A program made the translations under genes and the position numbers. The notes under the pieces were generated by a model. It made no database searches. It was not told the origin of the DNA and worked only from the letters and a program-made list of their open reading frames with translations. From the NCBI GenBank assembly GCA_019448385.1, contig JAGTXO010000032.1, positions 124,001 to 188,000 of the forward strand: a stretch of DNA of 64,000 nucleotides, written 5' to 3'. Shown here piece after piece: positions 12,367-44,030 of this stretch; positions within the stretch are counted from its first letter, which is position 1, and every line of letters starts with the position of its first letter. Origin of the DNA: Diacronema lutheri (Eukaryota > Haptophyta > Pavlovophyceae > Pavlovales > Pavlovaceae).

Positions 12367-12367
<1 letters not shown>

Positions 12368-16360: not shown

Positions 16361-16376
16361 GCGACCGCGCGAGCGC

Positions 16377-22405: not shown

Positions 22406-22474
22406 TTTCCCTCGTTTTCAAAAAACACTATATACGGCGCGGTCCGGGCTGGTCCGGCCAGTGTAAGGCTGAGA

Positions 22475-22492: not shown

Positions 22493-22699
22493 AATCAAGG
22501 GTTAAAAGCCAGCCAATGAGCGCTCGAGGGGTCGGGGCGAGGCTTATGACGAGCCTAGGACCGAGACACCCTCCTGACCGGCCGATTTGGAGTAGAATTC
22601 GGGGTCGAGCGGGCGCGGCGGACGGAGGGCCCGAGCCGGGCCGACGGAGGGTCCGACCCCGGAATGCGGGCGACCGGAAGGGCTTGGGTGATTTACGCC

Positions 22700-23146
22700 T
22701 AGTAGAATAGAATGGCGGATTCCGGGGGGGCTCGCAACTGGCATCGCGCAAGCTGAGGCCCCCTGACTGACCGGACCGCGCCGAGTGCGCGTGCACCCCG
22801 TGGAGGGCGCGGCCAGTCGGACACTCTTCGCGACTGAGCTCGCCGCGGCATACCGTGCGCTGCGCCGGCGCGCTACTTGCCGTTGGCCGAGCTGCGGGTG
22901 TTGCGCACCGCCGTGTTGCGCAGCCAGCGGCTGGATGCGCCGGTGGCCGGAACCTTGGCGCGCTTTGGCTAAGCGACCTCGGCCTGCACAGACTCGAACG
23001 CGTGCGTAAACTCGAGGCGTTGCAGGTGGCGAGCACGTGAGTTCGCGTAGGAGGTCTTGTACTCGGTGGCCTGACTGTCGACCGACGAGAGCTTGGGCGA
23101 GTTCGGCGGCACGTTGGCTCACTTGGGCTCGGTGCGCGGCTCTGCC

Positions 23147-23179
<33 letters not shown>

Positions 23180-24117
23180 CTTCGGACTCGCTGCCCGGCT
23201 CTGCCTGTGCGGGCGCGATGCACTCGGACTCGATGCCCGGCTCTGCCTTCGTGGGCGCGGTCGCGGGCACGGGCGCGCCCTCGACCCCGTCGCGGTTGAA
23301 GACATCGAACTCGACGCACACGCCGTGGTCCTTGAAGTCGGTGGCCTCGCTGTCGTTCGCGTAAGCCTCGGGCGAACTCGCAACGAGCGACGACATCTCG
23401 GCGTGGAGCCAGCACATCTCATGCTGCACCGCGTGTTCAGGTTCTCGAGCGCTCCGTTGAAAGAGTCACTCTCACCGAGGCGCTCGCTGCATTACACCAG
23501 ATAGCCATCGAGCTTGTGAGCGTGCTCGTGCGCCCGTGCGAGGTCCTTGGAGAGCGCGTCGGCGCGCGCGCACATGCCGTCGCATGACTTGGCCGGTGTC
23601 ATGCTGTGCTTCCAAGGCCTGGTGCTCGGCGTTGAGCGTGTCGTGATCCTCGCGAACGAGCTGCAACCAGCTGCAGCAGCCGCGCGACGCCGCTGTCGCC
23701 GACGATGCGCTGGAGCATGTGGCCCATGAGGTGTGCGCGGCACGTGGCGAGCGCCACATTTTTGCGCAGCAGCGCGAGGATCCGGGCGCCGCGGACGAGC
23801 CGGCCCATGCACTTGAGCGCGTAGATTCGGCCGCACATGCACGCGCCGACGACCGAGTCGGCGGGCCCGCCGTCGAGCCAAAAGTTGGCCTCGGCCGCAT
23901 CGCGGCGGCGGGCGACGCGCTGAAGGATGCGCACGCGGTAGTGCCGGTCGACGAGCAGCTCGTCGCCGAAGATCTCGTCGGGCAGCAGCTCGGAGACGTT
24001 CTGGGGGTACATGCTGTGCGAGCGTGCACGCGACGAGATCTCGTCGGGCGTGCCGTCCGTTCGTTCAGAGCAGAGCGCGTCGGACCGGCAGACAGACGAT
24101 GCAGCGCGCGAAGGCAC
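22700..24117 (-). pseudogene. Coiled-coil protein remnant, frameshifted
   Basis: Coding-like sequence on the minus strand in successive frames. From about 24117 it reads SELLPDEIFGDELLVDRHYR, WLDGGPADSVVGACMCGRIY and LLRKNVALATCRAHLMGHML. A frame change then leads into VREDHDTLNAEHQALEAQHD (coiled coil) and another into ADALSKDLARAHEHAHKLDG, ending in a stop near 23500. Further down, EMCWLHAEMSSLVASSPEAY and DHGVCVEFDVFNRDGVEG continue in yet another frame. No single frame covers it. I do not recognise the family. Its position next to the helicase remnant and the MITE suggests mobile-element origin. Confidence 0.4.
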
Positions 24118-24427
24118 CTGCGGCGCGCGGCGTGGCCTCGCGTGCCGTCACGAAGCCGCCTGCGCGCACTGCGGAGGCGGCGAGCGCGACGAGGGCGGGC
24201 GCGGACGAGGTGCTGAGCGGCGTCACGTACGCGCCCTCGCTCGCCGAGCTCGACGCCGCGGCGCTGACGATGCGCGCGGCGTACCACACCGACCGCCCCT
24301 GAGACGATGCGCGGCGCCCGCGGAGGACTGGTCCGTTGGCGCGCAAACCGTGGGCGAAAGGGCGCGAAGCCAACGGCCGTCCGCGCACGTTCAAACGCGC
24401 GCATACGGGTGGCATCCTCCCACCTTC

Positions 24428-24749
24428 GGCGCCGCTTTCCAAAAGGGTGTAGGGTGTAGGGTGTAGGATGCAAAACAAGCCCTCCCCACATTTGGGCCCG
24501 ACGTCATTCCTTCTTCGAAGCCGTGACGTTACTCACATACGAGTACCTTTACTTAGTGTAGGATGGATCTATTCTCTAAGTATTTGCATAGTGTAGGGTG
24601 TAGGATACGTACGGTTATGAAAGTCCCATAGGGGGGAGAAGGAATGACGCTGTGACGAAAGAAGGAATGACGTCGGGCCCAAATGTGGGGAGGGCTTGGT
24701 TTGCATCCTACACCCTACACCCTACACCCTTTTAGAAAGCGGCGGCGCC
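24428..24749. mobile_element. 322-bp MITE with about 85-bp terminal inverted repeats
   Basis: The left arm (24434-24513) and right arm (24657-24743) are near-perfect complements. Each arm starts at the outer end with a gcgccg...CTTTC box, then AAAAGGGTGTAGGGTGTAGG (GGGTGTA three times), GATGCAAA, CAAGCCCTCCCCACATTTGG and GCCCGACGTCATTCCTTC. The centre is A+T-richer and repeats the GTGTAGGGTGTAGGAT and GAAGGAATGACG motifs. It has no coding capacity. It separates the coiled-coil remnant from the helicase remnant. Confidence 0.85.
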
Positions 24750-24754
24750 TCGGA

Positions 24755-24803
24755 GCATGGCGGCTCGACAGCATGGCGCCTCGACAGCATGGCGTCGTCC
24801 AGC
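24755..24803 (+). repeat. 16-bp tandem repeat
   Basis: CATGGCGSCTCGACAG is repeated about 2.5 times immediately right of the MITE. Confidence 0.75.
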
Positions 24804-24899
24804 GTCACGCCGCGTCGTGGTCCTGCCGCTCCTCCGTGGCGCACGGATGGCGCTCCTCCGTGACGCAGCCGAACGACGCCGCGGCGTCACGGCCCGGGC

Positions 24900-27163
24900 G
24901 CAGTCGCCATCCTGGACGCCACGGATGGCGAACCGGTCGACGAGATCCGGCACGAGGACGTCTGCGCCATCGCCACGCAGCTCGACTGCGTCTACACGGG
25001 GCTCACGGGCTCGATGTTTGGCACCAAGTGGAACGTGTGCGGGGTCATGCTCCCGAAGCGCGCCGAGCAGCGGCCGCAGCCCGGCTCGGACGCCTTCGCC
25101 TCGTACAGCGTGGCCGCCTGGGCCGACACGTTCGACTCCACGGGGCTGTACGTGCCCGACGAGCGCGAGCGCGCGGCGGCGCTCGCGGCGGTGGCCGGTC
25201 TGCGCACGGCGCGCGCGCCGGCCGGGCCGGGCGGGCGCGAGCTCGCGCGCGCGCAGGGCTACGATCGCGCCGAGCAGGCTGCGAGCGCGGCGGCGGCGCG
25301 CGCGGCGATGGCCGAGACCGGCCAGCAGCGCGCGCTCCACGGCGCGGTCGTCGACTCGGCGCTGCGCGGCGTGGGCGACCGGCTGCACTTTTGCGACGCG
25401 CCGGGCGGCACGGGCAAGACGTTCGTCGAGCGCGCCATCATCGCCGCCGTGCGCGCGGATGGGCACGCGGTCGTCGTGTGCGCGTCCTCGGGCGTCGCCG
25501 CCACGCTGCTGCCCGACGGCCGCACCTTCCACTCGACCTTCAAGGTGCCCGTCGGCGCCGACTCGGACGGGCAAGCCGTTCAATGGCGTGCCGCGCTCCG
25601 AGCGCGGGCGCTCCGTGGCCGCCGCGGCGAATGATCGTGGGGGACGAGGCGCCGATGCAGAAGCGGGGCCGCCTCGACTCGCTCGATCGGTGTTTGCGCG
25701 ACGTGACGGGCGTCGACGAGCGCTTCGGCGGCAAGACGTTGCTGCTCGCCGGCGACTTTTGCCAGTGCTTGCCGGTGGTGCGGCGCGGCTCGCGCGCGCA
25801 GATCGTGCGCTCCTGCCTCGAGTACTCGGCATCGTGGCAGCACGATCGGCCGTACGCCTTGGTCGAGAACTCTCGCGCCTCGAACGCGGCGCGCGACACG
25901 GGCGACGCGCTCGGCGCGGGCGAGTGGGCGAAGCTGCCGCGCAGCCTCGGCGACGGCGCCTTTCCCGCGGCGGTGCCGCCTGCGGGGGCCATGCCCGGCG
26001 CATTCCCGCTCGATCCCGTGCAGCTGCCCGAGGCGTCTCGGCCTACCCGGCGGAGCTCGTAGCCACTCGCCTCCTCTCGCTCGGCGAGGGGCTGTGCAGC
26101 GGCACGCGGCTGGTCGTGCGCGGCGTGCGCGCCGGCGGCCGGCTGCTCGAGTGCGCGCGCCCCGGCGCGGCCGCCGGGCGCGACAGCACCGTGCTCATCG
26201 CGCGCATCGACCACCACTCGCCCGACGAGGGCACGTTCGCGTTTGCATGGCTGCACCGCCAGTTCCCGGTGCGGCCGGCGTAACAAGGCGCAGGGTCAAG
26301 CGCTCGGGTGCGCGGGCGTGTGGCTCGCCGAGCCGTGCTTCACGCACGGCCAGCTCTACGTGGCCGCTTCGCGCGTCGGGCACGCGTCGCGCATCCGCTT
26401 TGCGCTTGGCCCGGACCATGTGACGCGCACCGTCGTCTTCAAAGAGGTGCTCCGCGCGGTCAGCGGTGGCGAGGCGGCGGCGGCGGCGGCGGCATTCGCC
26501 GCGGCCGCCGTCGCCGCCGCGCGCGAATGCGCGGCGGCGGCGCGCGGTGGCGGCGGGCGCGGCGGGCGCGGCTCGGACGGCGCGCGCGGCGCCGGCGGCG
26601 GGCGGCGCGCTGGCGGCGGGCGCGACGCCGGCGCGCGGTGCTGCCCAGCACCCGCCGGCGCGACGCCCGTCGCGCCGCTCGCGGCCGACACGCAGCCGGC
26701 GGGTGCTCGCCAACACCGCGCGCCGCGCGACTGGCCCGCGTACCTGCGCGCCCTTCTAGGGCGCGCAGGGCGGCGCCAATGCGGCCGGCAAGCAGGGGCC
26801 TCAAGCCGGCGCGCTGCCCGACGCCGCGTGGGTCGCCGCCGCGCGCGTGCCGTCGGCGCTGCCGCCGTCCGGCGTCGCGCTCGCGCCGCTGCCGCAACCT
26901 CAGCCGCCGCCGCCGCCGCCGCCTGCCGGCAAGCAGGGCAAGCGCGCAGCGGCGGCGACGGCGGTGCGCGGCCCGGCGAGCAAGCGGTAGCGGTGCCGCC
27001 GAGCCGGGGGCGGGCTCCGTGGGCGACGCGGCTTGGCCCGCCACTCGCACCACTCGCGCCGGGCGCGCACAACGCGCCGTGGTCCGCTGCGTGGCCGAGC
27101 GAAAATGCGGTCCTGGCACGCCATGCGGGAGAGGCCGTACAGCGCGTGAGCTTGGGCCCGTGA
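24900..27163 (+). pseudogene. Pif1-family DNA helicase remnant
   Basis: Helicase motifs occur in order but in shifting frames. Walker A is DAPGGTGKTF and motif Ia is CASSGVAATLLPDGRTFHST (one frame, to about 25570). Then KPFNGVPRSERGRSVAAAAN follows in a second frame, and Walker B VGDEAPMQKRGRLDSLDR with LLAGDFCQCLPVVRRG in a third. GLCSGTRLVVRGVRAGGRL returns to the second frame, and motif VI NKAQGQALGCAGVW with FTHGQLYVAASRVGHAS follows after a small deletion at 26280. Two single-base shifts lie near 25575 and 25632, and the segment between motifs III and V is missing. It cannot make an active helicase. An Ala/Gly-rich tail continues to 27163. Pif1-like helicases are carried by Helitrons, Cryptons and other large eukaryotic elements; it is co-oriented with the large gene that follows. 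Confidence 0.8.
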
Positions 27164-27191
27164 TTTATTACTCATGGATTTATTACTCATG
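27163..27191 (+). repeat. 14-bp A+T-rich tandem duplication
   Basis: ATTTATTACTCATG occurs twice in succession. It is a small A+T-rich island between the helicase remnant and the large gene, and could be part of a promoter. Confidence 0.6.
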
Positions 27192-28153
27192 CCATGGCGT
27201 CGCGCCACGATTACGCCCGTGGCCCCGGCCGCCAGCCTCGCGCCGCTACGCCGTGTCGTCGCGGCCGGCGCACACAGCGAACTGTGTGTCCGCGGCACAT
27301 GCCCGGCTGCTCGCGAGCTGCAAGCTTGCCGAACTGCTCGCGCTAAAATGGCGCGTTGCGGGCGTGCCCGCGCACCGCGCGTATGTTCCGCGCGTTCCAG
27401 GCGCGCCGCGCCGCGCGCCGAAGCGGCGCGCGGCGCACGTGCGGCCGCGAGCCGAAGAGGGGCCGGCGCGACCGGCCGCGAGGCAGACGCAGACGCTCGG
27501 CGTGCCGGTCGACGCGTCGTCCAAATCCGCGTCGGGCGGATGCGCGCCTAGGCCGGCGCTGCGTGCAATCGGCGCGGGTCGCCGCCGCATGACGAAGCAT
27601 GCTTCCATCCGGTGCTCGGCCACGCGCTCGGGCGTAACGTTCGCGCCTGTTCGGCCGAGGCGCACTCGCCGTCCCCTCGCGCCGGCAATGCGCGTGCGTG
27701 CCAGCACGCCGGCAGCGGAGGATGCCACGGCAGCGGCGAGCGGGTCCCCGCCGGTGTGCCGCTCGGCGCCCCGTCACGCGCAACGCGCGCGCCGCCCGCT
27801 GAACGCGCACAATTGCCTGGGCAAGATCGTCCCGCGCTCACGCCGCCGTCGCATCGTTCCATGCATGGCGCCCGGCTCGTCCGTACCGCTTTCGGGCAGT
27901 GCCGCGACGCCCTTTTTCAAAGGCGGGTGCCGCGCTGATTCGTCATCGGCCACCATCCATCTGGCCCTCTAAAGCCGGTTTGCGCGTGGGCGCCCGTCCG
28001 GTGCGAGAAGCGGCTCGCGTCCTCGCGCGGGGCGCCTCCGCGCCAGGCGCCCGGCGCGCGCTCGTCTTGCCGCGCCACCACGCTGATCTGCGCCCAACCC
28101 TCGCTCGCCTATTCCCCCGTCGTTTCTGCTGCGTAGCCCGCAACAGCGCGCGC
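27192..28153. other. Region between helicase remnant and the large polyprotein gene
   Basis: Open frames exist on both strands but none gives a recognisable product. Some may be 5' exons of the large gene; for example the frame of its first exon is already open from 27899, without an ATG. I cannot decide. Confidence 0.35.
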
Positions 28154-31100
28154 ATGACGCGTGCACGGCGCAGCGCCTGGAGCAACTTCCGAGTCGTCGG
28201 CCGGCAGCCTGTGGGGGGCGCGTTCATCGGCCCGATGTGGCCGGTGAGAGTGCCCGACGTGCCGCGTGGTGAGCGCCTGCACGGCTCGCCGGGTTCGGCG
28301 CGTTCCCAGTCGGCCTCTCTCCGACCCGCCGTAAACCTTGCGTGCGCACCCCGCACACCCGGCGCTGCGCGGCGCGGCGCAGGCGTGAAAAACGAGGGCA
28401 ACGCGTGCTACGTGAACGCCCTCGCGCAATCGCTCGTCGCCTTGAACGTGCTCCGTCCGATGCCCCGCTCCGCTTCGCGCCGTGCGGGAAGAGTCGAGAA
28501 GGCGCTTTTTCGGGACTTTGGCACGCTGCTCGAGGACACCGAGGCGCCGGCACAGCTGTGTCTTGTGTCCGTCGTCGACGTCATCTTGGGCCGTGGCACG
28601 CGAGGGACGCAGCAGGACGCTGCTGAGTTCTTCCAGATGCTACTCGGCCGAGTGCCCGGGCTCGCTGCTGCCTTCGAAGACGACAGACGCGTAGTGCTCG
28701 AGCCGATCGCTGTGGCCTCGAGCGAGCGCGGTGAGGGCATCGCCATCCTCGTCAGCATTGGCGGCGATGCGGCGCGCACGCTCGCACACGCTCTGGGGGG
28801 CGTCGCTGGGCCGCCGCAGGGTGGCAGCCCGGACGCGTGCCGCTCGGACGTGCTCATGCCAGCCAGCATTGCCGTCGAGGTGCCGCGCACGACGCGCGGC
28901 AATGGCTCGCAGTGCAAGAACAAGCACGCGTTCGTGTGCGCGCCGCGGCTGCTACTCGGCGGGCGCGACTACCTCCTCGTCGCCGCCGTCGTGCACTTGG
29001 GCGAGGAGTCGACGAGCGGGCACCTTGTCGCCATCGTGCTCCGCAACGGGGCTTGGTTTCTGTGCGACGACGACAACGTGCGGCGGCGCGCACGGCCGCT
29101 TGGCGCCGCGACCGGCGGTTGATCGCAGCCGCAGCCGCCCCGTCCTCCCGCGCGGCACGCGCGCGTGGCCTGAAAGCTCGCGCCGCGCGCCTGCCGCACG
29201 CACGCGCGTTGCCCGCGCAGATGCACAACTTGTCTCAGTCCGACGCGCTGGCGTGGGCAAGTGGTGCGAGCATGCTCTTCTACAGCCGGCTCGACGCGGA
29301 ACCGTTGGACCCGGCGCTGGGCTCAGCGTCACCGCCGTCGGCCGCATCGCCTGCGTGGCCGAGCTCGGCGCCCGACGCGCCGACCCTGTCGGCAGCCTGG
29401 TCGCGGGTGCGGCAGATGGCAGCGGTGCCAACAGATGCGACGATCGGCATCGCGGAGACGGCTGCAGACACCTCTGCGGCGGCGATCGGCCCAGCTGCGT
29501 GCGAGGCCCGCCAAGTTGTCTCCGCGACGCGCGCATTGCCAATGGCGGTGAGTGCCTCGCACGCGCACGCCGTCCGCTGTCCACAGCGTGGCGCCCGGCG
29601 CTTGCGTTCGCGCCAGGTAAAGTTTGCGCGTATAGCGTGCAGCACCCTCACGCATCCCCTACGCCTCCCGCCCGCCCGACCTCTTGCCCGCCGGCCGCGC
29701 GCAGGACCAGCGCACGCCAATTGTTGGGCGCGGCCAAATCTGGGCATGCGCAAATTTTGAGCCGGCAGCGGAGGGCGGGGATGCGCAGCACAACTGGCGC
29801 AAGCGCACGTGGTGCCCGCAGCACGAGCAGCGCGAGCAGCGCGAGCAGCGCGAGCAGCGCGAGCAGCGCGAGCAGCGCGAGCAGCGCGAGCAGCGCGAGC
29901 AGCGCGTGCAGCGCGTGCAGCGCGAGCAGCGCGAGCAGCGCGAGCAGCCCTGGCAGCCAGCGCGGCCAGGCCTCGGCGCGGGCGCTGGCGTTCGGCCCGC
30001 TGCTCTGCCGCCGAGCCATCCGCGCGCCAGCATGCGCGCGAGCAACCGCTTCGAGCCGCTCTTGTTGGCCGAGGCGGACGTGCCCGCCACCGAGCCCGCC
30101 GCCGCCCAGCCCGCCGCCCAGCCCGCCGCCGAGCCCGCCGCCAAGCCAGCCGCTGCCAAGCCCACCGCCGAGCCCGCCGCCCAGTCCACGGCCCAGCCTC
30201 CCACCGTGCCTGACGCCAAGCCAGCCGACCAGCCCGCCGTCAAATGCGCTGCCGCCAAGCGCGCTGACGACCGCATTGCTGCCGCTGAGGTAGGCGCCGT
30301 CGCCGCCACGCTTGCCGCCGCCACCGAGCCTGGCGGCGTTGCCGAGCTCGCCGCCGCCGCCGACGAGGGCTGCAGGGCGCGTGCCGACGCGCTCGCCAAG
30401 CGCGAGACCCGCCGCGCGCTCCACCGCGAGCAGCTTTTTCGCGAGGACAAGCGCGCGGCCGGCCGCCTGATCGAGCAGTGCGCGCTGGGCTCTGCGGACG
30501 ATGCAGCGCGCGCGCGCGCCCTGCTCGAGCGCGTCAAGGCGCGTGGCCACGCGCTGCCTCCGCACCTGCTGCGGTCGCTGCGCGACCTCGCGTCGCCGCG
30601 GCTCGCGCTCGCCGCTGAGGCGGCGGGCGTGCTCGCCGCGTCCGAGATGGGCGAGGCGGACGCACCTGCGGAGGCGCGCGCGCTACTCATGCACGCCGAG
30701 GCCGTGGGCGCCCACCTGCCCGCGCACACAGAGCTCGCGCTGCGCCGCGCCTGCATCCCCACCGCCGAGCAGGCGGAGCTGCTCGCGACTGCGCGCGAGC
30801 TGCTCGCGCCGCGCGACCCCGAAGGCTCGGTGGCTCCGGCGGGCGCGCGTGCCGAGTGCGACGGCGCCGCGCTCGGCACTCGCGCGCGCGAGCTCCTCTC
30901 GCGACTCGACGAGGCGCACCTCGACGTGCAGCCCTGCATTGCGCGGCAACTGCGCCGGCTCGCCGCCACCGAGCCAGACGCAAGTTCGAGCGCTGCGCTC
31001 GCCGCCACGCCCGGCACCGCCGGTCGCGCGGCCGCCGAGCCGCGGCGCGCGTGGCGCCCGCGCGGGTGGCGTCTCGCGGTAGGCGCAAAGGGTGCGCGCG

Positions 31101-32997
31101 CGCGCGCGCGCGCCGCGGCTGCTCCGCTCGACACGGCGCCGCCCGCGGCGGCCGGCGCCGTCCCGCCGCTCGAGCCGCAGCCCGAGCGCCGTGCAGCCGA
31201 CGCCGCGGCCGCCGCAGCGGCGCCGGCGGCCGGCGACGACGGCGTGGCACGCGCGCTCGCAGCCGCAGCGCGCGGCGACGGCCTCGACGGCGTCGATGGC
31301 GCCGACGACCTCGTTTGCGCGCCGTGCGACCGAGGCTGCGCGCACGCACGCGACGGCGGCTGCTGCGAGCCTGCCGCGCGCAGCTCGCCCGACCAGTGCC
31401 CGCGCGCACCGCCGCGGCGCGCACGGCGGGCGGCAAAGCGCGCGCGCGACCGGCTGCGGAGATCAATCGACAGGTCAGAGCGGGCTGTCGGCCGCCGATT
31501 GCGTGGCGGCGACGCGCGCCGCGAGCGCAAGCGCAGGTGCGCGACGGGCGGCCAGCACGCACCGCAGCCGCTCCGCCGCGCGAGTCGCAGCCCGCCGTCG
31601 CGCACCGATCGGCCCTCGGCCGAGCATGCCGCCGAGCCTGCCGCCGAGCCCGACAGCCCCCACCGCCGCCCGTGTGCCGGTGCCGCCGTCGCCGTCGCCA
31701 CTGTCCGGTGCGCCGTCGGCATCTTCGCGAGTGTCGTCGCCGCCTCTGCCGTCCGGGCCGCCATTGCTCCGGCCGCTCGCCCGTCTGCAGCCACCGCCTT
31801 TTGGCTCGTCGCCGTGTGCTCGGCCGCCGCATGGGCCGCCTTCGCCTCCGCCGCCCGCCCGACCGCCGCCTTGGCCGCGCCGCAGCCTGCCACGCAATCG
31901 TCGGCCGCCGAGCCCACCGCCGCCGCGCCAGCCCCCGCCCAGCCCGCCGCTGCCGAGCCAGCCGCTGCCCAGCCCGCCGCGGCCGAGCCCGCCGTGGCGC
32001 AGCGCGACGTCCAGTCCGCCGCCCCGGCGCTGCTCGCGTGGGCGGGCGACGCGGCTGCGCTCCGGCTGGCCGATGCCGCCGCGCGCGCCGGCATCCCGCA
32101 GGCAGAGGTGGACTGCATTGCGGGCGGCGACATGCTCGCCTCCACTGTGGACGCTTGCTGCGAGGTCGTGCTGCGCGTGCACGGGCAGGCCGGCGAAGGG
32201 CGCGTCTGCCACGTACCGCTTGCCGCTCAGCCCGCGGTGTTCCAGGACGGCGCCGAGCGCGCCGCGCTGCTGCACCGCCTGCACAGCGAGGCGACGACGC
32301 AGGCGGTCATCGGCATGTGGAGCCCGCCGGGCGGGCGCGGCGGTGCGGGCAGTGACGATGGCACGCCGCCCGCCTCCGGCCATTTCACCGCGTTGCGCCT
32401 CGTGCGCGTCGCGCGCGCGGGCGAGCATCGCTACGACGCGGTGCTTGTCGACACGCTCGCGTCGCCGAGCAGGCAGGCGCTCAAGCGTGCCAGGTCGATA
32501 ACCGCCACGCTGCACGCGGCGGGCCTCGACGTCTTGCCCGTGCGCCGCGCGCGGCTGCTCGACAACGCGGCGCAGCGTGGCGCGACGTGCGGCCTCGCCG
32601 TGGTGGGCGCGCTCAACGACGCCGCGCTCGCTGCGGCGGGCGGTGCATCCGCGCCGCGCACGTTCAGCGTGGCGGACATGTACGCTGTTGGCGAGCACCT
32701 CCGCGTCGCGTTGACTGGCGCGGTCAGCGGGCGTGCGCCGAGCGGCGCCTGCGCCGGGGCGGGCGCGGTGCGCGGCGGGGGCAGCCGCGATCGCGCTGCC
32801 GAAGCGCCGCGGCAGACGCGCGGCGCCAAGGCCGCCGCAGACGCCGCCGCCGCTGCCGCCGTTCCGCCGCCGCCGCCACCTCCGCCGCCCGCGCTGGGCG
32901 CCGCCGCCGCCACCACCACCGCCGCTGCCGCTGCTGCCGCCGCCGTGGCCGCGCCGCCACCGCCGCCACCGCCGCCGCGTGCCGGCGACGAGGGCGA

Positions 32998-33043
<46 letters not shown>

Positions 33044-36000
33044 GCCGCGCGCACGTTCTTGAAGCTCGCGCCCAGGGCGCGCGCGGCCGCCTCGGCGCGT
33101 GAGGCGTTGCGCGCCGCGTGTGCGCGCGCGGACGCGGCGGCGTCGTCACACGCGTCGGCGCCGCACGCGCCCGCCGGTGCGCGCCGCCGGCGGCGCGCGG
33201 GCGCAGGCGAGCTGGCGCTCGCGGCTGCGCGCGCGCTCGCCTCGACGGAGCACGGCGATTTGACGGACGACGCGCTCGAGGCCGCCGTCGAGCAGGAGCT
33301 GGGCGACGAGCGCGGCCAACTGCTGCTGTGCACGCGGGGCGCAGCGGCGCAAAGGCCCGCGCTTTGCCGGCTCCTGAAGCACGCGTGCGCGTCGGCGCGC
33401 GCGGCGAAGCGCGCGCAATTCACGGTGTTCGTCGTGCGCGCGGCCACGCGCGGCGAGCGGGGGGGCGCCGCCGCGAGGCGCGTGGACTCGGTGGTCGAGC
33501 TGTCGTGCGCGCTGCACGAGAAGGCGGGCGCGCTCGGCGGCCTCCAGAGCGTCTGTGTGCGTGGCTTTGCCCTCGAGCGCCGCCGGACACTCGACGGTGG
33601 CGCCGAGGCCGGCGCGTCCGCCATCGGCCAGGACGAGCAGGTCGAGGCAGAGGCGGGCGAGGCGTCCGTCGCCGGCGTGACGATGGCCAAGCAGCTGCGT
33701 CAGTTTGCCGAGCAAGCTGCCCGCGACGACGTGCTCTTCCGCGTCGCCGTGTCCGAGGCCGACGCCCACGCCCGGCTGGCGCGCGTTGCGGGTGACGATG
33801 TCGGCGCGTACAGCGTCGTGCTCGCAGTCGCCGGGCTCGTCTGGCTGGCCAAGGCCGACGAGGTTGCGCCGGCGGCCGCCCGGTCCGCCGCCGCGCCGCC
33901 CGCCGCCCCGCCTGCTGCCGCCACGTCCGCCGACGCCGAGCGCGACGCCTCGCCTTCCGACCGCCTGCGCGCGCTGACGCTCGCCGTGCGAGTCGCGCTC
34001 GCGCGCGGCGTGCTGCGCCACCTCCTCGCCGACGCGTCGCCGGGCGCGTCCGCGACCGCTGGCGGTAGTTGCGCGACGCCCGTCGAGGCGGCCGCGTCCG
34101 ACGCCGCGCCGCCCGCCACGGGCGTCGTGACGAGTGGCGTCGCGGCGGGCGCTGTGGCGGCCGCACCGGCTGCTGCGGGCGGTGCGACGGCGGGTGCATC
34201 GCCCATCACGCGGCCGGCGAAGCGCGCGCGGCGCACGCTCACCGCCGCTCCAGCCGCCTCGGCCGTTGCGGCCGCTGGAGGCGCACGCGCTGGCGCACGC
34301 GGCGCGGCCGGCGCGCCTCGCGCGCGCGCCGCGCGCGCGCCGGCCGAGTACGTCTGGCTTGCCATCGCGCGCCGGATGCTGGCGGCGCGACACGCGGCGG
34401 CCGCGGGCGGCGACTTTGTCGCGTCGTGCGTCGCCGCGATGCAGGCCGAGTACGGCGACGGCTGTGCCGTCGTCGTCGGCGACGCGCCTGATGACGCCTT
34501 GGTCGAGGCTGCGGCGGCGGCGCTGCTCGAGGGCAAGCACGCGGCGGTGAGCCTCGGCTGCGTCGACCGGCCGGCGGTGCTCGTCGTGCAGCGCGCCGTG
34601 GACGCGCCCACGTCGCGCGTGCACGGGTGGTGCGCGCACGCGGCGGGCGCCGCCGAGTTTGACGAGGGCGCCGCGCACGGCGTGTTCAACGCGATCGTCG
34701 AGCGCGCGTGGGCGCTGCGTCCGGACCCGGCTGACGGCAGCCCGCCGCCCACGCGCACGTGGGAGGTCGAGCAAATCGCTGGCGACGCGCCCGACCAGGC
34801 GGGCGTGGCCGCGCTGCGCGTGCTCTACGCGCTCGTCGCGGCGCACGGCCGCTACCGCTCGGCCGCCGCGCTCTTTGGCGCGATCGCGCAGCTGCACGCG
34901 CCCGACGCCGCCGGCGCGCGCGCGGAGGTCGTCGCGGCGGCGTGCGCGGTGCCGCACGGCGCGCGGCCGGGCGCCGCGCCGGCGGCCGCGCGGGACGACG
35001 CGAGGGAGCGCGCATGGGAGGGCGCTCAGATCGCCGCGCTCGCCGTCGGCGCGGACGCTGCGCGCAGGCGTGTCGCGCCCGTGCGCGCGCTCGTCGACGC
35101 GCTCGGCACGCCACCGACCTCGGCGATCACGGGCGGGCCGGCGGTCCGGCTCGCGGGCGCGGGCGACGGCGGCCACGGTGCACGGTGGGTGGGCGGGCAG
35201 GCGGCGACGCCCGCCGAGCAGCTGCCGAGGGAGCTGCTGCGCGCCTACCACGAGGCGGTGCTGTGCGTCACGCCCGGCAGCCTCCAGCTCGACTCGGCGG
35301 CGCTCGACGCGGTCACGCGGCCGCGCGAAAACGACACGCTGGAAGGCCTCCTCGCGCGCGTCAGCTGGCAGTGCGGCGCGAGGGCGAGCACGTGCGCCAT
35401 GCTCGCCACGTTTTCCGAGCAGGCGGGCACCGGCTCGCGCGTCGCGCTCAAGGCCCTCCGCACGAGCTCCGACCTGGCCGGGCTGACGGCGGCTGCGGTC
35501 GGGCAGCAGGCGCCGCAGACGCCGCCGCCGCCGCTGCTCGTGATGCTCGGCCGCTGCCCCAGCCCGCTCGTCGGCGGCGGCCTCTTCCCGCCCGACCGCG
35601 CGACGGGCGAGCCGGCGGTGCACGCGGCGACGTCCGAGCTCGCCGTCGAGCTGCTGCGCGACGCGCGCGCGCTGGCCGGCACGGACGGGCGGCTCGTCGT
35701 GCTGTGCCTCGAGGCGTCCAACCCGCTCTGGTTCTGCCCCAAGGTGCGCGAGCTCGAGCTGCCGCGGACGCGGTCGGACGGCGTGCGCGCGTCCGGCTGC
35801 ACCTGCCCTGCGACGTGCAGCGATGCGCGCGGCGCGGCGGGTGGCGCTGCCCGCGGCGCATCGACGCGGCCGGCGGCGCGCGCGATCAACAAGGCGGTGC
35901 TCGACCACTTCGTCGCGCTTTTCGGCCGCGAGGGCTTCGCGACCTTTGAGTTTGCGGGCGGCGGCGAGGCGAGCTGGCTGTGCGACAGCGCGGCCGGCAC

Positions 36001-39000
36001 GACGACCGTCGCGGCGTGCGCGTCGCTCCCGCCGCGCATGGGCGATGGGCAGCTGGCCATCCGGCGGCACACGCTCGGCACGGGCGCCGGCGCGCCGGCG
36101 CACGCCGTCGTCTCGCTCCGCGTCGCGCACGTGAGCCACGCCATCCGCCGCGCGGCGGACGACGGCGGCGCGCGCGCCGAGCGGATGGCGCGCGCCGCGC
36201 GCGCGTTTTGCGATGTGGCGGCCGCGCTGCGCGTCGACGCGATCCTGGCGGAGGTGCCCGAGGACCGCCCGACGGGCACGCCCTTCCTTGGCGGGCTGCT
36301 CGAGTTTTGGAACAAACGCCACGGGAGCTCGACGGCGCCAGCCACGCTCGCGCTCGGAGACGTGCGCGAGGTGGCCAAGCGGACGGCCGACGCAGCGGCC
36401 GGCCGAGCGGACGAGGTCCCTGCGGCTGGCCGTCCGCAGGTCGCGGCGCGCGCGTGCGCTGGCGCGATTGGCGGCGGCGCGGGCGCGGCGGGCGCCTCGG
36501 ACGCTGCGCCGCGTGCACTGGCGGGCGCGTCGGGTGCGCGCACGGACGGCGGCCCTGCCGACGCACCGCGCCAGCTGGAGAGCCGCTACGGCGAGGCGAG
36601 CAAGCTCGACCTAGCCCAAGATTCCACTACGGGCCGCGTCCTCGACGCTCGCGAGGCCCAGGACCGCGCGCGCGTGCCTGCTGCGCCCGACGGCACAGCG
36701 CTGCGCCGCGTGCTCGACGCCGTCGGCGCGGGCGCGCCCGCGCAGCGCAGCCCGCGCTGGCACGACGAGCGATGGGAGGAGGTCACGGGCAGCAAGGTTG
36801 GCGACGTCGTGAACGACAACGCCGGCGTCGCGCACGAGACGCTCACCGACGAGTACGTGCACCGGCGGCGGCGCGAGGTGCGGACCAAGGCGACGACCGC
36901 GGGCATCCTCGGCGAGGCCGTCGCGCTGCGCAAGCTGGCGGCCGCGTACGGCATCACCGTCGTGTGCAACCTGCCGATGGTGCGTGCGGACCCGCACGAC
37001 AAGAGCGCGCCGTTCGCCTTCTCGCCGGACGGGCTCGCCATCCTCCCCGAAGACAACGAGCAGGTCCTCGTCGAGGTGAAGACGCTCACCAAGGCGGGCG
37101 CCACGGCGCACGAGGACGGGCCGCCGCAGCCGCACCGCGATCAGCTGCAGCTCGGCATGCACGTCCTCGGCGTGCGCAAAGCGCTCTACGTGCAGTACCT
37201 CAGGCACGAGGACCGGATCGTCGTGCACGTCGTGACGCGCGGCGCCGGCTGGCTTGCATTCGCGCAGCCGAGGGTGCAGGCCTTCTGGGCGCGCGTCGTC
37301 GAGCGGCGCGCGCGGCTCGAGCGCGCGCGCGCCGACCACCCGGCTGCGAGCCGGCGGCACCGGCGGCAGCAGACGCCGGCCGGGCCGCCGCTCGTGCTCG
37401 CGCTGGACGGGCGCATCCCCGCCGCGCGCGCCGCCGCGCTGCACGCCGTCGCGCACGGCACCGCGAGCGCGGCGGCGGTGGCGGCGACGGCGGCGACGGG
37501 CGACGCGACGGCGTTGCAAGACGCGATCGCGGCGCTGCGCGCGCCCGTCGGCAATGCGGCGATCGCCAGCGCAGCGCGTGCGGAGCGCGCGGCCGTCGAG
37601 CGGGCGATCGCGTACCTCGGGCAGCCGGCGGGCGACGCCGCCGCCCGCGGCACGGCCGAGGCGGCCGAGGAGGAGAGGACGGTCGACGCCGACATCTGCG
37701 CGTTGCTGCACCAGCTCGGCGCGAGCGTGGCGCACGTGCACGTCGAGGACGCGGATTGCGTCACGCGTGAGCACTGGGGCGGGGCGGTGCTCGCTGCAGC
37801 GGGCGACCCGTCGAGCGCCCCCGCCATTTCGAGCGTCATCGTCGCGCACATCGTGCGCCTCGCCGGCTTTGGCGTCGAGCTCCCGCAGTCGATTCGCGTC
37901 GCCCCCAGCACGGCCGACTGGCACGAGGGCTGGCTCGACGTGCAGTGCGTGCTGCTGCGCACGCGCCGGCGCGGGCGGCGCGACGACGACTTTGTGGCCG
38001 TCGTCAGGCGCGGTGGGCGCTGGTTTGCGTGCGAGCCCGGCCGCGCGCGGCGGCTGCAGTGGCGGTCGGTCCTGCGCCGCGCGCGCGGCGGCGTCGACGG
38101 GACCGGCGAGGAGGCGTTCGCGGTCGTCTACGTGCGGCGCGGCGACGCGGCCGGCGACGCGGCTGGCGACGCGCAGGCCGAACGGGCGCGCGGCGGGCGC
38201 GCGCGCAGGCGCACGCGCGGCGGCACGCGCAAGCGCAAGCGCGGCGCCTCCGCCGGGCTCGAGGCGGCCGCGCCCGCCGGCGCGCCGGCGGGCGCTGCTC
38301 ACCGCCCGCCCGCCAGGCGTGCCACGGTCGCCGCGCGCACCACGCGCTCTGTGACCGACGCGCGGCACTCGGCGCCTGCCGCCACGGTTGCACCTGTCTT
38401 CGACTGGCGCGCCGGCCGCCCGCCCCCTGCCGCCGCCGCCGCCGCCAAGCGCGGCCAGGCGCTCGAGCCGGGGCAGTTCGCGCGGCCGCGTGGGCGCGCG
38501 CCATGGGGCAAGGTCTGGGACAGAGTCTCGGGTGCGTGGGCGGACAAGCCGACTGGTGCTGCCGTCGCCGCCGCGCCGCCGCCGCTGCCGCCCGCCGCCG
38601 CGCCGCCGCCCGCCGCCGCGCCGCCGCCCACCGCCGCGCCGCCGCCCGCCGCCGCGCCGCCGCCCGCCGTCGCGCCGCCGCCCGCCGCCGCGCCGCCGCC
38701 GCCGCCGCCACCGGCGGCGCTCGGCCGCCGGCAGCACGTCGGCGCGGGCGGCAGCGCGGCGGGCCGGCGGCTCGCGGCCATCGCACGGCGGCAGCGCGGC
38801 GTGCGCGCGCCGCCGCCCGCCGCGCGCTTCCTCGCCACGCTGCCGCCACCGCCACGCGACGGCCTCGCGCGCACGAGCAAGCAGGCGCGCGCGAGGCGCA
38901 ACGCGGACGGACGGCCGGCGCACGCGCGCGCGGCCAACGCGCGCGCCTTCTACCGCGGCGTGGAGCTCGGCGTGCACGCGACGCGCGCCATCGTCGACGC

Positions 39001-42000
39001 GCGCCACGCCGACCTGCCGCAGGCCGTCTTCGTGGCGGAGGCGCGGGCGATCGTCGCGCGCTCCGCCGGCGGCGGCGCGCTGCTCGCGCCGGACGACGTG
39101 CGCGACCTGTGCGACGCGCAGACGGACGCCGATCGCGCTGCGATCTGGGCGTCGGTGGGCGCGCACGAGGCGACGCGCATCTTCGCGCTCGTCACGCGCA
39201 ACGCGAGCTTGGCGGGCGCGGCGCTGCTCGTGCTGCACACGCCGGCGGGCGCGCCGGCGCGCGCGCTCGGGCTCGTGGCGACGCGCTCGCGCGCGCCGTC
39301 GACGGGCGCGCCGCGCGACGCGCACAGGGCGCTGGTGCAGCGGTTGGACGTGCTGATGGACGCGATCGCCGCGGCGCGAGGCGCGTCGCCGCTCGAGCTC
39401 GAGCTCGCGCTCGCGCCCGAGCCGCAGAGCGCGTGCAACGCGCGTGCGGCCGCGCTGCTCTGCCTGCAGGCCGTCGCGGACGCGAGCGGCCGTCCCGCCG
39501 CTGAGGACGCGCTGGCCGCGCTCGACGACGCGCGCGGCATCGACCGGCACTGCCACGCCGTCCGGCAGCAGATCGAGGCGAAGCTCGCGTGGCGGCGCGC
39601 CGACGGCGCCGTCGGCGTTGACGGCGCCGACGGCGCGCCCGCGCTCGCGCCTGCCGCCGCACCGCCGGCGTGCGCGCCGGCGCACGCTGCCGGCGAGGCG
39701 GCGGTCGACCAGGCGATCGTCACGCGGGTGCGCGACGCGCTGCGCGCGTGGGCGACGACTGGCACCGCGCCCAGCGCGGCGGTGCTCGACGACGCCTGCG
39801 CCGCGTACACGGCGCGCGCACGCGCGCGCAAGGACGCGCGCACGGCGCTGGGCCCGACGCGCGCGGCCGAGCTGCTCGCCGCGGCCGCGCGCGGCGGAGC
39901 CGACGGGGCGGATGCCGCGCGCGCGCTGCTCGGCGGCACGCCGCGCCTGCTCGTCGTGCTCCTCTGCGTGCCCGTCGCCGCGCCGTCCGGCGAGCCGCCG
40001 CGCCCGGTCGGGCTGCTCGTCGCCGACCGGCCGACGGACGACTCGCGCCCGGCCGCGCTCGTGCGCTACGACTTTGCGCCGCTCGACGCGGACGTGGCCG
40101 TCGCGGTCGGCGCGCATGCCGTCGCGCTGGCCAGTGCGATCTGGCCGCTGCTCGCGGCCGAGGGGGAGCCGCGGCCATCGCCCGTCGTGCGCTCGCAGCC
40201 GCGCGGCGGCGACGATGGCGCGCGTGCGCTCGCAACGTTCGCGTGCCTCGACGCGCTGATGACCGCCAGCGTCGGCGCGCACGGCCTCGCGGGCGGCGCG
40301 GGCATGCTGCCCGCGCTGGTCGCGCGAGGCGCCGCGGCCGCCCAGCGCGAGCGGCAGCTGCGCGCGGCCGCCGAGAGGCTGGGCGGCACGGTCGCTGGGT
40401 GGCCGGACACGGGCGCGAGCGCGGCGGGCGCGAGCGTCGACGAGGAGGCGCGCACGTACGAGGTCGAGGCGGTCGTCGACGAGCGCCGCAAGGCAGGCAA
40501 GAAGGTGACGTTCCAGTTCCGGATCAGGTGGCGGGGCTACGACGAGAGCGCCGACACGTGGGAGCCTGAGGCCAACGTGAGCAGCGACCTCGTCGCCCAG
40601 TTCCGCAAGACGCGCGACGAGCAGAAGCGGCGCGCGGGCGTATCGGGCAGCGGCAGCGGCGGCGCGGGCGCGGCGTCGGCATTGGCGTCGGCGCCGCTTC
40701 GCGCGCACGGCGTCTCGGGCGCCGCGGGCAAGCGCGCCGCGGCGGGTGCCGCCGCGCGCGCGCGCGACGCCGCGGGCGCGCGCGCGCCGAGCGTTCCCCG
40801 CGCGCGCGGCGTCGAGCGCGCGCGCGTGGACGAGCCCGCTGCGCCGAGCGCGCGCGCCGCCGGCGGCGCGACGGCGCGCACGCGCGTCAGCGTGCTCCCG
40901 GGCTTCGTGGTCAAGCGCTCGACGCTCAACGCGGGGCCGCAGGCGGTGACGGCGCAGCCCGGTGCGCGGAAGGAGCTGCGGCGCATCGCGGCGGCCGTGC
41001 ACAGGCTCACGACACAGGCGTACCGCGTCATCAACAAGGTGGTGCGCGACGAGGCTGCGGTGGCGAGCGCGCAGGCCGTCGGCGCGGCGTCGGGCGGCCC
41101 GTCGACCAGCGTGCACACGTCGACCACGATGGACAAGGGAACCGTCCGTGCGATCTTCTCGGCCATCGGCTGGCACAAGGACGAGAGCACGTACGGTGCA
41201 GCGCCCCGAGGCAAGCCCGCCGAGCAAGCCGCCGCGCAGACCAAGGCGGCGACGGCGCGCGCCGTCGGCGAGATGGCCGAGGGCGTCCAGCCCGTCTGCG
41301 CGGTGGGCCTCACGGAGATCCTCGAGGCGGAGGCGACGCAGGTGTCCACCGCGTGCCTGATGCATCCATCGCGCGTCGTGAACGGGCTGCTCCGCGACGT
41401 CGTCCGCGCGGCAGTCGAGCGCGACGAGGCGCTCGTCGCGCTGCCCGAGATGCAGCGAAACGCGCGCGTGCGCGAGCTGTGCGAGCGGCTGCTGCGCGGC
41501 GACGTGGAGGGCGCGCGCGTCGGCTGCCCCGCCGCGCTCGACCGCCACCTGCCCGACATGGTCCTCCACAAGATCGACTACAAGTGCACGCCCACGAAAA
41601 GGTGGAACTACGACCGGCACACGACGCGCTACTTCCTCGTGCAGATCCGCACCCTGCAGCACGTGGCCGAGGGGCAGGCGCTGCTCTGCCGGCTCGCGCA
41701 CATCCACACGCAGCTGACCGGACGGCCGCCGCGGTACAATGTGGCGCCGCTGCGCACGCACAATGTGCGCGCGAGGCGTGGCTGCCGCTGCCGCCGCCGA
41801 GCGCCCAAGCGCGCGCGCCGCCGCCGTGCGCGCCGCCCCGCGGCCAGGTTGGTCACGCGCCCGCGCGCTCGCGCGCCGCGCGCTGCGCGCAGGTGCCGCG
41901 CAACGTGCGCCTCGCCGCGAGCGCCATCTGGGTGACGCTTTCGGATGACGAGCGCAAGGAGCTGCGCGCGCGGCTCAAGGCGCTGGACCTGCGCGACCAC

Positions 42001-43617
42001 GATGGCGAGCCGATCAAGTGGACAGGCACAAACGGCAACACCCCGCCGATGTCGGACGTGCGCGTCAGGTACGCGGTCTTTGCGACGCGCTTCGACATCT
42101 CCAACCGCGTCTTCGACTACGCCGGGCGCGAGCGGCCGCCGGCCGATCTGCCGTGGCACGCGCGGCGCTCGTGGGTTGGCCTCGCGCCGCTGCCGCGCGT
42201 GCCGCTCCCGGGCCGGCAGCCCGTCAAGTCGGTGGTGACAGATGGCGTCGCCGTGCACGCCGTCGGGACCGTCCTCGTGCCGAAGGCGCAGGCGCCGGCC
42301 GGCGGCTCGGGCGTCCTGCACCGCTGGCGCCGGCCGGACGGGCGCATCGCCGTCGCGCTCGGCTCCGAGCTGCGGCGGGCGATCGACGTCGAGGCGGCGG
42401 TCGTCGTCGCGGCCGACCCGAACATGGGCAACATCACCACCTACTCTGCGCACGTCGGGCGGGCGGCCGTCTGGCGGCAGTTCACGCAGCGCGCGCGCGC
42501 GCGCGCCGCGGGCTTTGCGCGCGAGACGGCCAAGACCAACGCGGCGCGGCGGCGCGTGCGCAAGGACGGGCGCGGCGAGGAGTTCAGCGTGGAGGCGGAC
42601 GAGGCGCGGCTTGGCGAGGCGCACAGCGCCAAGGTGCTCGGCGAGGGCGAGTTCCACGCCTTCCACCGCGAGAGCGCGCGGGTGCGCGAGCGCGCCGCCG
42701 AGCACGTGTACGACGCGCCGGCGCGCCGGAAGGAGCGCTGGCGGCGCGACAGCGGCGGGCGGTCCAACGCGGCGCGCGTCGCCGAGGCGCTCATCGCGGC
42801 GCACTGTGTCGACGGCGTGACGCGCGACCGGCTGCTCGTGTGCGTGGGCAAGTGGCTGCGCGACCACAAGGGCGCGCAGCCCAAGGGCGCGCCGCCCGCC
42901 TTCCAGGTGGGGCTGCTGCGCGAGCTGCGGCGGCGCGGCGTCGCGGCCGTCTTCGTGCCCGAGCCGTACACGTCGATGCACTGCTCGATGCCGCGGCTCG
43001 CCAAGGGCGGCAGGCTGCAGCGCTGCGGCGCGGAGCTCGCGCAGAACCCGCGCCTGCCCGTGGCAAAGGGCGGCACGCGCACGGTGCACGCGCTCGTCAT
43101 CTGCCCGGCGTGCAACGGCGGCAAGAAGCCCGTGCACCGCGACTACAACGCCGCGCGCAACATCTTCTACGACGTGCACGACATGGCGGCGCACGCGGCC
43201 GGGCGCGACACCACGTCGACGCCTGAGCGCTTTGCCCTCGTGCTCGCCTGGTGGGCGCGCGGCGAGGTGTGGGAGCGTGAGGAGCGCATGGTGCACGGCG
43301 AGGGCGACGACTGCGACGACGAGTGCGACGGCGACGACGAGGGCGACGACGAGGGCGACGACGACGACGACGACGATGGCAGCGGCGACGGCGGCGGCGG
43401 CGAGGGCGACGGCGACGGCGACGGCGACGGAGGCGGCGGCGGCGACGACGACGATGACGGCGGGGGAGGCGGCGGCGGCGACGGCGGTGGCGACGACGGC
43501 GGCGGGCGCGGCGGCGGTGGCGGCGGCGGCTCTCGCGCCCGCACCCCCGCCCGCGGAGCTGCCAGCGCCAGTGCCGGCGGCGGCAGCGCGCGCGGGCCGA
43601 AGCGCGGCCGGCGTTGA
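28154..43617 (+). CDS. Giant mobile-element polyprotein: USP - Ulp1/adenain-like protease - YqaJ exonuclease - chromodomain - Fanzor nuclease
   Basis: Reconstructed as four exons: 28154-29077, 29221-29616, 29705-41764 and 41893-43617. All three introns are phase 0 (donors GTGCGG, GTAAAG, GTGCGC; acceptors CGCAG), and each restores a domain: the USP C-terminus, the passage into the long exon, and the Fanzor core. The product is about 5,034 residues. The 12-kb third exon has no stop, and recognised domains share one frame along its whole length, so it is not a chance opening. The start ATG (28154) is uncertain; upstream exons are possible. Domain order suggests deubiquitination or self-processing (USP, cysteine protease), DNA end resection (YqaJ), chromatin targeting (chromodomain) and RNA-guided DNA cleavage (Fanzor). 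It belongs to a family, since a dead partial copy lies at 16.4-18.5 kb. I know of no described protein with this set of domains. Confidence 0.75.
28384..29290 (+). other. Ubiquitin-specific protease (USP, peptidase C19) domain
   Basis: The Cys box VKNEGNACYVNALAQSL has its catalytic Cys codon at 28406. QQDAAEFFQMLLG is the conserved QDAxEFF element. The His box SGHLVAIVLRNGAWFLCDDD has His at 29021 and Asp at 29066-29072. The domain end ASMLFYSRL comes only from the second exon, through the 29078-29220 intron, which confirms that splice. All catalytic positions are present, so activity is likely. The zinc-ribbon fingers insert is short or absent. Confidence 0.85.
29825..29949 (+). repeat. 9-bp minisatellite encoding (Glu-Gln-Arg)n
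   Basis: GAGCAGCGC is repeated about 13 times, with two units changed to GTGCAGCGC. It is in frame in the large gene and gives an EQR tripeptide repeat, probably a charged extended or helical linker after the USP domain. An Ala/Pro/Glu-Pro-rich linker (EPAAAQPAAQPAAEP type) follows at about 30090-30260. Confidence 0.9.
31995..32740 (+). other. Adenain/Ulp1-like (clan CE) cysteine protease domain
   Basis: Catalytic residues occur in clan-CE order: His in SGHFTALRLV (codon 32381), Asp in AVLVDTL (32450), Gln in NAAQRGATC (32573) and Cys in ATCGLAVVGAL (32588). The His-to-Cys spacing is 69 residues and Gln precedes Cys by 5, close to adenovirus protease and Ulp1. Such proteases are encoded by Polinton/Maverick, KDZ and some other elements, where they process virion or transposon proteins or remove SUMO. 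Assignment rests on motif order and spacing. Confidence 0.6.
34350..34990 (+). other. Possible second, catalytically dead protease-like domain
   Basis: The segment AVVVGDAPDDALVEAAAAAL, KHAAVSLGCVDRPAVLVVQR and VEQIAGDAPDQAGVAALRVL can be laid over the protease domain at 32 kb, with QAGVAALRVL over ATCGLAVVGAL. The catalytic Cys position would then be Ala. It could be a duplicated, inactive copy used for binding. Speculative. Confidence 0.3.
36640..37300 (+). other. YqaJ-type PD-(D/E)XK exonuclease (lambda-exo-like) domain
   Basis: Conserved elements in order: QRSPRWHDERWEEVTGSKVG, AGILGEAVALR, FAFSPDGLAI (Asp codon 37028), VLVEVKTLTK (Glu 37073, Lys 37079) and HRDQLQLGMHVLGVRKALYV. These match the YqaJ/lambda exonuclease fold that digests one strand of double-stranded DNA ends to prepare recombination. 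All metal-binding and catalytic positions are present. Confidence 0.85.
40451..40616 (+). other. Chromodomain
   Basis: RTYEVEAVVDERRKAGKKVT, FQFRIRWRGYDESADTWEPE and NVSSDLVAQFRK give a complete chromodomain. The aromatic-cage candidates are Y (YEVEAV), W (IRWRGY) and the Trp/Glu of DTWEPE, which in HP1/Polycomb-type domains bind methyl-lysine on histone H3. Chromodomains of mobile elements often steer insertion to heterochromatin. In the decayed copy at 17.3 kb this domain has lost 11 residues. Confidence 0.9.
40908..43617 (+). other. Fanzor (eukaryotic TnpB-like RNA-guided nuclease) region
   Basis: The alpha-helical N-terminal part (AVHRLTTQAYRVINKVVRDE; HPSRVVNGLLRDVVRAAVER; DMVLHKIDYKCTP) continues across the 41765-41892 intron into the core. 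RuvC-I Asp is in VVVAADPNMGNITTY (codon 42415). RuvC-II Glu is in FVPEPYTSMHCS (42961). RuvC-III Asp is in VHRDYNAARNIF (43141). A Cys set (HCSMP, QRCGAE, ICPAC) between II and III forms the zinc ribbon of the TnpB/Fanzor family. All three acidic residues are intact. The C-terminus is an Asp/Gly-rich tract ending in the basic GPKRGRR, a likely nuclear signal. Family members use an RNA transcribed from the element's 3' end as guide. Confidence 0.85.
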
Positions 43618-44030
43618 CGCACGGCCGAGCCGCGCAGCGGTCGACGCTTTGCGGGCTCTGCCCAGGTCGCGCGCGGCTGGCGACGCGTGCCGCGCGCGGC
43701 ACGACCGTGCACGCCGCCACCCGTGGCCGAGCGCGCCGCACCAGCCGGCCCGCTCCAACCGCCGTGCGGATCACGGACGCTCGCTACGGCTCGTCGGCGC
43801 GCGTCACCTGCGCCGGCGGCCACGGCGCCGTCTGCTCCGGCCTCGTCGCGAGCAGCCCGACCGCTGCTCGCCGCCCGCACGCCGCCGCAGCAACGCTGCG
43901 CGTCGTGCTCCCCCGCTCGCCAAACGCGAAGAGCTCCCTCACAAGGACGTCCTTCCGAACGGCCCGCGCTGCACTCGGGGCGCGATCGTGCCCCTGATCG
44001 GATTTGGCTTGACCATCTATACTGCTGACG
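43618..44030 (+). other. 3' flank of the Fanzor gene, possible guide-RNA region
   Basis: About 400 bp after the stop codon. In Fanzor/TnpB elements the guide RNA overlaps the 3' end of the nuclease gene and this flank. There is GC-rich inverted sequence near 43670-43720 (CGCGCGGC against GCCGCGCG) that could fold, but I cannot define an RNA or the element end. A 127-codon open frame (to 43997; VRITDARYGSSARVTCAGGH) is not recognised. Confidence 0.3.

Follow-up and report, generated by a model that had tools for sequence, protein, structure and literature searches.

A probable Fanzor within a giant polyprotein of a young, high-copy mobile element in Diacronema lutheri

We analysed a 64,000-nt stretch of the genome of the alga Diacronema lutheri (the window), which holds a very long open reading frame with several recognisable domains, and asked to what gene this frame belongs, whether that gene travels in a mobile element, and what a Fanzor nuclease at its end may do there. 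Our best overall explanation, to which we assign a probability of roughly 0.7, is that the locus is a giant, high-copy DNA element, here in its 21.6-kb form, with Fanzor-assisted copy-in. The element and the gene structure as reported here are held with greater confidence than this explanation as a whole; the copy-in mechanism taken alone is a tentative proposal. Feature coordinates are collected in Table 1.

Table 1. Features of the element copy in the window and of a related fragment (positions of the window; strand given where assigned).
Feature	Positions	Strand	Basis
Older fragment of the element's family, broken and rearranged	16300..18464	+	similarity to element
Whole mobile element, 21.6-kb form	22428..44022	+	end mapping across other loci, end-pattern counts
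Perfect 18-nt palindrome near 5' end	22475..22492		hairpin scan
Inverted repeat (arms 24427-24515 and 24659-24747)	24427..24747		repeat search
PIF1-like helicase region; lacks the N-terminal part present in C26	24928..26600	+	PF05970
Deubiquitinase-like (USP) gene; exon 1 at 28154-29077, exon 2 from 29221 to about 29616	28154..29616	+	spliced UCH match
Polyprotein exon 1 from the frame's first ATG	30032..41764	+	codon usage; start site inferred
Clan-CE-like protease candidate	32246..33055	+	H..D..Q..C order by eye
YqaJ / lambda-exonuclease-like domain	36758..37168	+	PF09588, TIGR03033, sister copy
Chromodomain	40457..40609	+	PF00385
Polyprotein intron, GTGCGC..GCGCAG	41765..41892	+	codon-usage frame switch, splice letters
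Polyprotein exon 2: Fanzor core and acidic/glycine-rich tail	41893..43617	+	Fanzor motif, TNB domain
405-nt 3' non-coding end, candidate guide-RNA region	43618..44022	+	position only

To delimit the element, we searched the genome for copies (43,492,796 bases in 103 contigs). The 3' limit fell at 44022-44030 in 27 of the 29 other loci aligned to the window, the remaining two being cut by contig ends, and the 5' limit fell at 22374-22428 in all 39 other copies scored, out of 278 candidates. The end letters of the element are CTATATAC and CTATAC. Allowing up to 2 mismatches, the 5' end pattern occurred 214 times in the genome and the 3' end pattern 217 times, with 0 occurrences of the controls. 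These near-equal counts argue for movement of the whole unit and against one-ended spread, and together with the sharp ends at 22428 and 44022 they bear out the mobile element that a sequence-only reading of this DNA had proposed. In the window, then, lies a copy of a very large mobile element that has recently multiplied to high copy number and whose copies are near-identical. Host-type genes lie on both sides of it (WD40/HIRA-like, SF3A2-like, transporter, glycosyltransferases and others). Upstream, the older fragment is 94% alike to 39854-41668 over 16669-18464, with indels of 26, 14, 1 and 6 nt, and near 16.3-16.6 kb it holds part of the start of the Fanzor exon, placed before the chromodomain stretch.

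Pairing of 5' and 3' ends on contigs C1-C50 yielded a partner for 26 of the 51 listed exact 5' ends; the other 25, whose partner was unlisted, mismatched or past a contig end, were left out. The 26 paired lengths comprised 11 at 31.0-31.1 kb, 5 at 29.1-29.2 kb, 2 at 26.0-26.5 kb, 7 at 21.4-21.6 kb and 1 at 12.7 kb, and these discrete length classes show that several forms multiplied. Based on the mean length of these 26 paired copies (27 kb), 214 copies would sum to an estimated 5.8 Mb, or about one tenth of the 43.5-Mb genome.

The window copy (form B) was compared with the copy on contig C26, which represents the 31-kb form (A). The two are 99.7% alike over the first 2.4 kb (22428-24805) and 90-96% alike across most of 24928-29580; a B-specific stretch (29580-32010) then replaces 10.2 kb of A, and from 32010 onward they are 98.6% alike, with 102 of the 134 mismatches falling within the first kilobase. 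The 4.1-5.1 kb compared in each of C71, C88 and C75 showed the structure of form B again, which ruled out a one-off deletion. Two further sampled copies, C34 and C5, represent a third form, like A without positions 6971-14708 of c26rc, the USP stretch included. As A, B and the C34/C5 form differ by blocks, parts have been exchanged between element forms. The sequence-only reading had missed the ends of the element, its copy number, its helicase gene and the shortness of the window copy relative to the 31-kb form. The first 2.4 kb possibly holds a further gene; minus-strand ORFs there gave no match in a Pfam scan. The inverted repeat recurs in 40/40 scored copies of that stretch. Hairpins with arms of at least 7 occur in 52 of 143 element tiles, so the 18-nt palindrome could be a chance feature.

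The uninterrupted 12-kb reading frame of the sequence-only reading was confirmed at 29636-41935 on the forward strand (4,099 codons). In DNA as GC-rich as this, long frames arise readily (one of 1,787 aa lies on the reverse strand), so frame length by itself says little. To score codon usage, a model was trained on 1,467 codons from those regions of eight host ORFs that Pfam recognises. Of the 19 tiles of 600 nt between 30228 and 41627, 16 favoured forward frame 2, and between 41628 and 43427 all 3 such tiles favoured forward frame 1; in 90-nt tiles the switch sits around 41765-41892, which supports the third of the introns proposed earlier. The donor and acceptor letters of this intron seem to persist in the decayed copy near 16.3-16.6 kb. 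Codon usage speaks for a single gene, predicted to run from about 30.0 to 43.6 kb with this splice, and counted from its first in-frame ATG the polyprotein of the window copy would have about 4,485 aa. In form A (C26) this coding signal extends over about 12.3-31.2 kb, with a frame change near 16.1 kb; if this change is an intron, as its letters suggest, the product would have about 6,200 residues. Between A and B, dN/dS of the polyprotein was 0.54-0.58 and the indels inside it sum to multiples of three; indels relative to two B copies were 9 and 3 nt. Comparisons with few changes gave 0.91 and 2.76 (C34-C26) and 0.79 and 1.83 (C5-C26), and this range of 0.79-2.76 would weigh against strong selection on the polyprotein.

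Upstream lies the deubiquitinase-like gene. The Pfam UCH profile matched ORF 27803-29122 unspliced (7.3e-15, 57.2 bits), and after removal of the first proposed intron (29078-29220) it matched at 1.1e-16 and 61.6 bits (cut-off 23.9) and reached the profile end (254/254); C and H boxes were present as read by eye. Donor and acceptor of this intron are kept in C26, with a 1-nt indel inside the intron, and it can be retained. The sequence-only reading had gone further and joined the USP, the polyprotein and the Fanzor in a single three-intron gene coding for about 5,000 residues. Its USP and first intron are real, GT/AG letters stand at the second intron (29617-29704), and the parts share strand and order. 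Against it, coding scores are weak or negative over 29028-30227 (at best -0.04 and 0.02), and coding signal is absent around the second intron; about 3 kb with negative scores separates the USP from the polyprotein in C26; USP exon 2 carries a 1-nt indel at 29559 relative to C26; C34 and C5 lack the USP stretch; and the USP shows no visible constraint between A and B (dN/dS 1.06, about 31 silent and 86 amino-acid changes). With the first ATG of its frame at 30032, the polyprotein needs neither of the first two introns. We therefore consider the single gene very improbable, and the USP is probably a separate gene that is not fused to the polyprotein. The earlier gene model is partly wrong: its first and third introns are supported, its second intron and the joining of the USP are not.

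Within the polyprotein, the chromodomain was matched well above cut-off by PF00385 in the 4,099-codon frame (4.9e-12, 46 bits, cut-off 25.1), and its best PDB sequence match was the CDYL chromodomain (7.1e-9). The YqaJ profile (PF09588) scored 15.8 bits (0.017) in the window copy and 16 bits in C26, under the cut-off of 22, and 28.2 bits, over it, in the sister copy L001; a lambda-exonuclease family profile (TIGR03033) gave 1.7e-5 for the window copy, below its cut-off. The window copy and L001 both have SPDG..VEVK, which we take to be the PD-(D/E)xK residues of YqaJ and lambda exonuclease. The sequence-only reading was right to propose a giant polyprotein whose gene unites the Fanzor, a chromodomain and a YqaJ-like nuclease, and of its four domains named for Pfam profiles, UCH and Chromo scored over cut-off in the window copy and YqaJ below it. 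The fourth, a clan-CE protease (Ulp1/C48), had no Pfam match at E<=1; the candidate's structure model is weak (pLDDT 47.6), so its lack of a Foldseek match at E<=0.001 is uninformative, and the protease has neither profile nor fold support. In form A, the N-terminal part of the polyprotein (L046/L049, c26rc from 12303) also shows a clan-CE-like H..D..Q..C order by eye; it has no Pfam match to a clan-CE protease.

The C-terminus of the polyprotein is a probable RNA-guided DNA-cutting enzyme of the Fanzor kind. Pfam Cas12f1-like_TNB matched ORF 40570-43617 (4e-6, 27.3 bits, cut-off 26.3), and NCBIfam guided_TnpB scored 12.1 bits against a cut-off of 100. The Fanzor motif D-X(125,275)-[TS][TS]-X-X-C4 zinc finger-X(5,50)-RD, a pattern given in the excerpts of PMC3627910 and searched with zinc-finger spacings set in this analysis, is present with a D-to-TS spacing of 184 residues; it occurred in 0 of 5000 shuffles and in 0 of 115 other window ORFs of at least 250 aa. 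D at 42415, E at 42961 and D at 43141 would be the catalytic residues. The structure model of the core was too weak to use (pLDDT 36.1). Searching the genome with the core, we found 99-100% identity in 91/91 scored copies (the best 91 of 419 candidates). Across 29 loci, 27 sites varied at 40393-41764 (20 amino-acid-changing, 7 silent) and 4 at 41893-43617; these loci were picked for identity in the core, so this difference cannot show constraint on it.

To learn how the element moves, we scanned 26 of its ORFs or pieces and found no transposase, recombinase, reverse transcriptase or capsid/packaging family. A PIF1-like helicase was matched by PF05970 in ORF 24671-26059 (2.7e-23; C26 counterpart 1e-24). 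The helicase is fuller in form A: the stretch of C26 at c26rc 3430-4537 has no window match, and an N-terminal part in form A looks by eye like a single-strand-binding protein. As the PIF1 profile in C26 is split over two frames (positions 6-83 and 76-219), an intron or a frameshift presumably lies there. An integrated or decayed large DNA virus could also combine these functions, as large DNA viruses carry YqaJ-like nucleases and helicases too. A literature listing for PMC3620924 pairs YqaJ with Mimiviridae. We consider a virus extremely improbable here, given that the 26 scanned ORFs or pieces hold no capsid or packaging family and that two scans of viral contigs returned no relative.

Insertion sites were compared in 43 left and 47 distinct right flanks, which share no fixed motif beyond a C before TATATAC. 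This C replaces other letters in the repeats hit, and it is best read as the first base of the element; copies with G or T in its place also exist. A DDE cut-and-paste transposon was rejected: no consistent target-site duplication was seen by eye in 22/22 copies with both flanks, and the two ends of the element are not inverted repeats of each other. Separately, a small repeat with TAAGCGYCGTTAGTAT (window 19226-19367) occurs at 960 places in the genome at <=1 mismatch (control 0), and 5 of the 43 sampled left flanks (L040, L050, L057, L069 and L095) end within or just after TAAGCGYCGTTAGTAT, at varying points; this repeat is an insertion hot spot for the element. In six contigs of the assembly (G000 C1, C3, C12, C14, C32 and C33) the sequence stops no more than 1 base from the 3' terminus of the element. 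Chromosome ends were rejected as the reason, since host DNA adjoins this terminus in 22/22 copies examined on both sides, and these contig ends are probably an assembly effect.

We also considered a rolling-circle, Helitron-like element whose Rep was lost or has diverged and in which the Fanzor is a passenger. The PIF1-like helicase and the lack of target duplication fit such an element, and the excerpts of PMC3627910 and PMC9741609 place Fanzor1 in Helitron2 and deubiquitinases in Helitrons, respectively. However, no HUH Rep domain was found in the element, and the single PF14214 match in the genome lies outside it, in C63, at a locus whose similarity to the window is limited to about 70 bp past the element's 3' end (44052-44116) and which has nothing in common with C26. 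That locus (L070, G000 C63:34238-37519) has a Helitron-like Rep match at 8.3e-23, with frames broken up around the match. Helitron termini (5' TC, 3' CTRR) are absent, the element ending in CTATAC; there is no A/T or T/T insertion site, flanks being variable; and no terminal asymmetric inverted repeat was found beyond chance (115 of 500 shuffles were as good). The fold z-scores of the element ends were -1.78 and -1.29, with the 18-nt palindrome on the 5' side. Lacking Rep, Helitron termini and a terminal asymmetric inverted repeat, the element was not assigned to Helitron or Helitron2, its helicase notwithstanding, and a Helitron-like origin with lost Rep appears unlikely. By the features tested, the element fits none of the compared superfamilies.

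A protein search with the Fanzor part returned 1 protein, 99% alike over 61% of the query, and a search with P0001 1950-2560 found no relative among 1,520 candidates scored. Among the matches listed from open-licence PMC literature, no paper was recognised as describing this element. The closest described systems each share part of it. The Chlamydomonas elements CRe-1/2/3 are Fanzor1-bearing transposons of the Helitron2 group; as given in the excerpts of PMC3627910, they likewise combine an alga, an intron-bearing Fanzor gene in a DNA element and the absence of target duplication (in CRe, for full-length insertions), whereas the present element is 12.7-31.1 kb long, joins its Fanzor to a chromodomain and a YqaJ-like nuclease, and is without their asymmetric inverted repeats and TTTT target. 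Helitrons and Helentrons with deubiquitinase domains also unite helicase and deubiquitinase in one element, but have VTD/OTU in the RepHel protein (excerpts of PMC9741609), whereas here the USP is in its own gene and Rep was not found. Burro giant retrotransposons, in the excerpts of PMC6431247, similarly encode ubiquitin-related domains in a polyprotein of very large size (4,873 aa); they are LTR retrotransposons, whereas the present element has no reverse transcriptase among the scanned ORFs. SpuFz1 and other tested Fanzors share the core motif, but the excerpts of PMC10432273 mention no chromodomain or other fusion for them, whereas here the core ends a giant protein.

How the Fanzor would contribute is proposed by analogy with the RNA guiding of TnpB and Fanzor (PMC10432273, in excerpt). 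No transposase was recognised among the scanned ORFs; the element may move as a unit through a recombinase or Rep that has diverged beyond recognition, or through one supplied in trans. The Fanzor would take up RNA from the element's 3' end, with the adjoining host DNA as guide, and would cut vacant or sister sites, into which repair would then copy the element. Helicase and YqaJ nuclease could process DNA ends, the chromodomain could direct the complex to methylated chromatin, and the USP, if active, may protect element proteins. The Fanzor's location, 405 nt short of the 3' terminus, agrees with an RNA-guided mechanism; the ordinary RNA fold of the last 200 nt (z -1.29) and the lack of a conserved TAM-like motif in 43 left flanks give it no help. 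Both of the latter suit a possible alternative, in which the Fanzor is mere cargo of a giant element moved by another enzyme and has no part in its spread. Against this speaks the 99-100% identity of the scored core copies, 90 of the 91 being free of internal stops and one having a stop, although these are the best scorers and young copies. Returning to Fanzor-assisted copy-in, its most far-reaching version, an undescribed superfamily of giant eukaryotic elements in which a Fanzor itself drives the copying from within a polyprotein of about 4,500-6,200 residues that reads chromatin and processes DNA, seems somewhat unlikely to us.

The giant element at this locus is real, young and abundant, and the polyprotein that carries its Fanzor is an unusual one. 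The element bears on the question of why transposons carry Fanzors: about two hundred copies occur in a small algal genome, and in this young, very abundant family a chromatin reader and a nuclease-like domain belong to the same gene as the Fanzor. Its many natural insertions with known flanks are material for testing guide, target and copying. If the Fanzor does drive the copying, such copying would have given rise to about one tenth of the host's genome.
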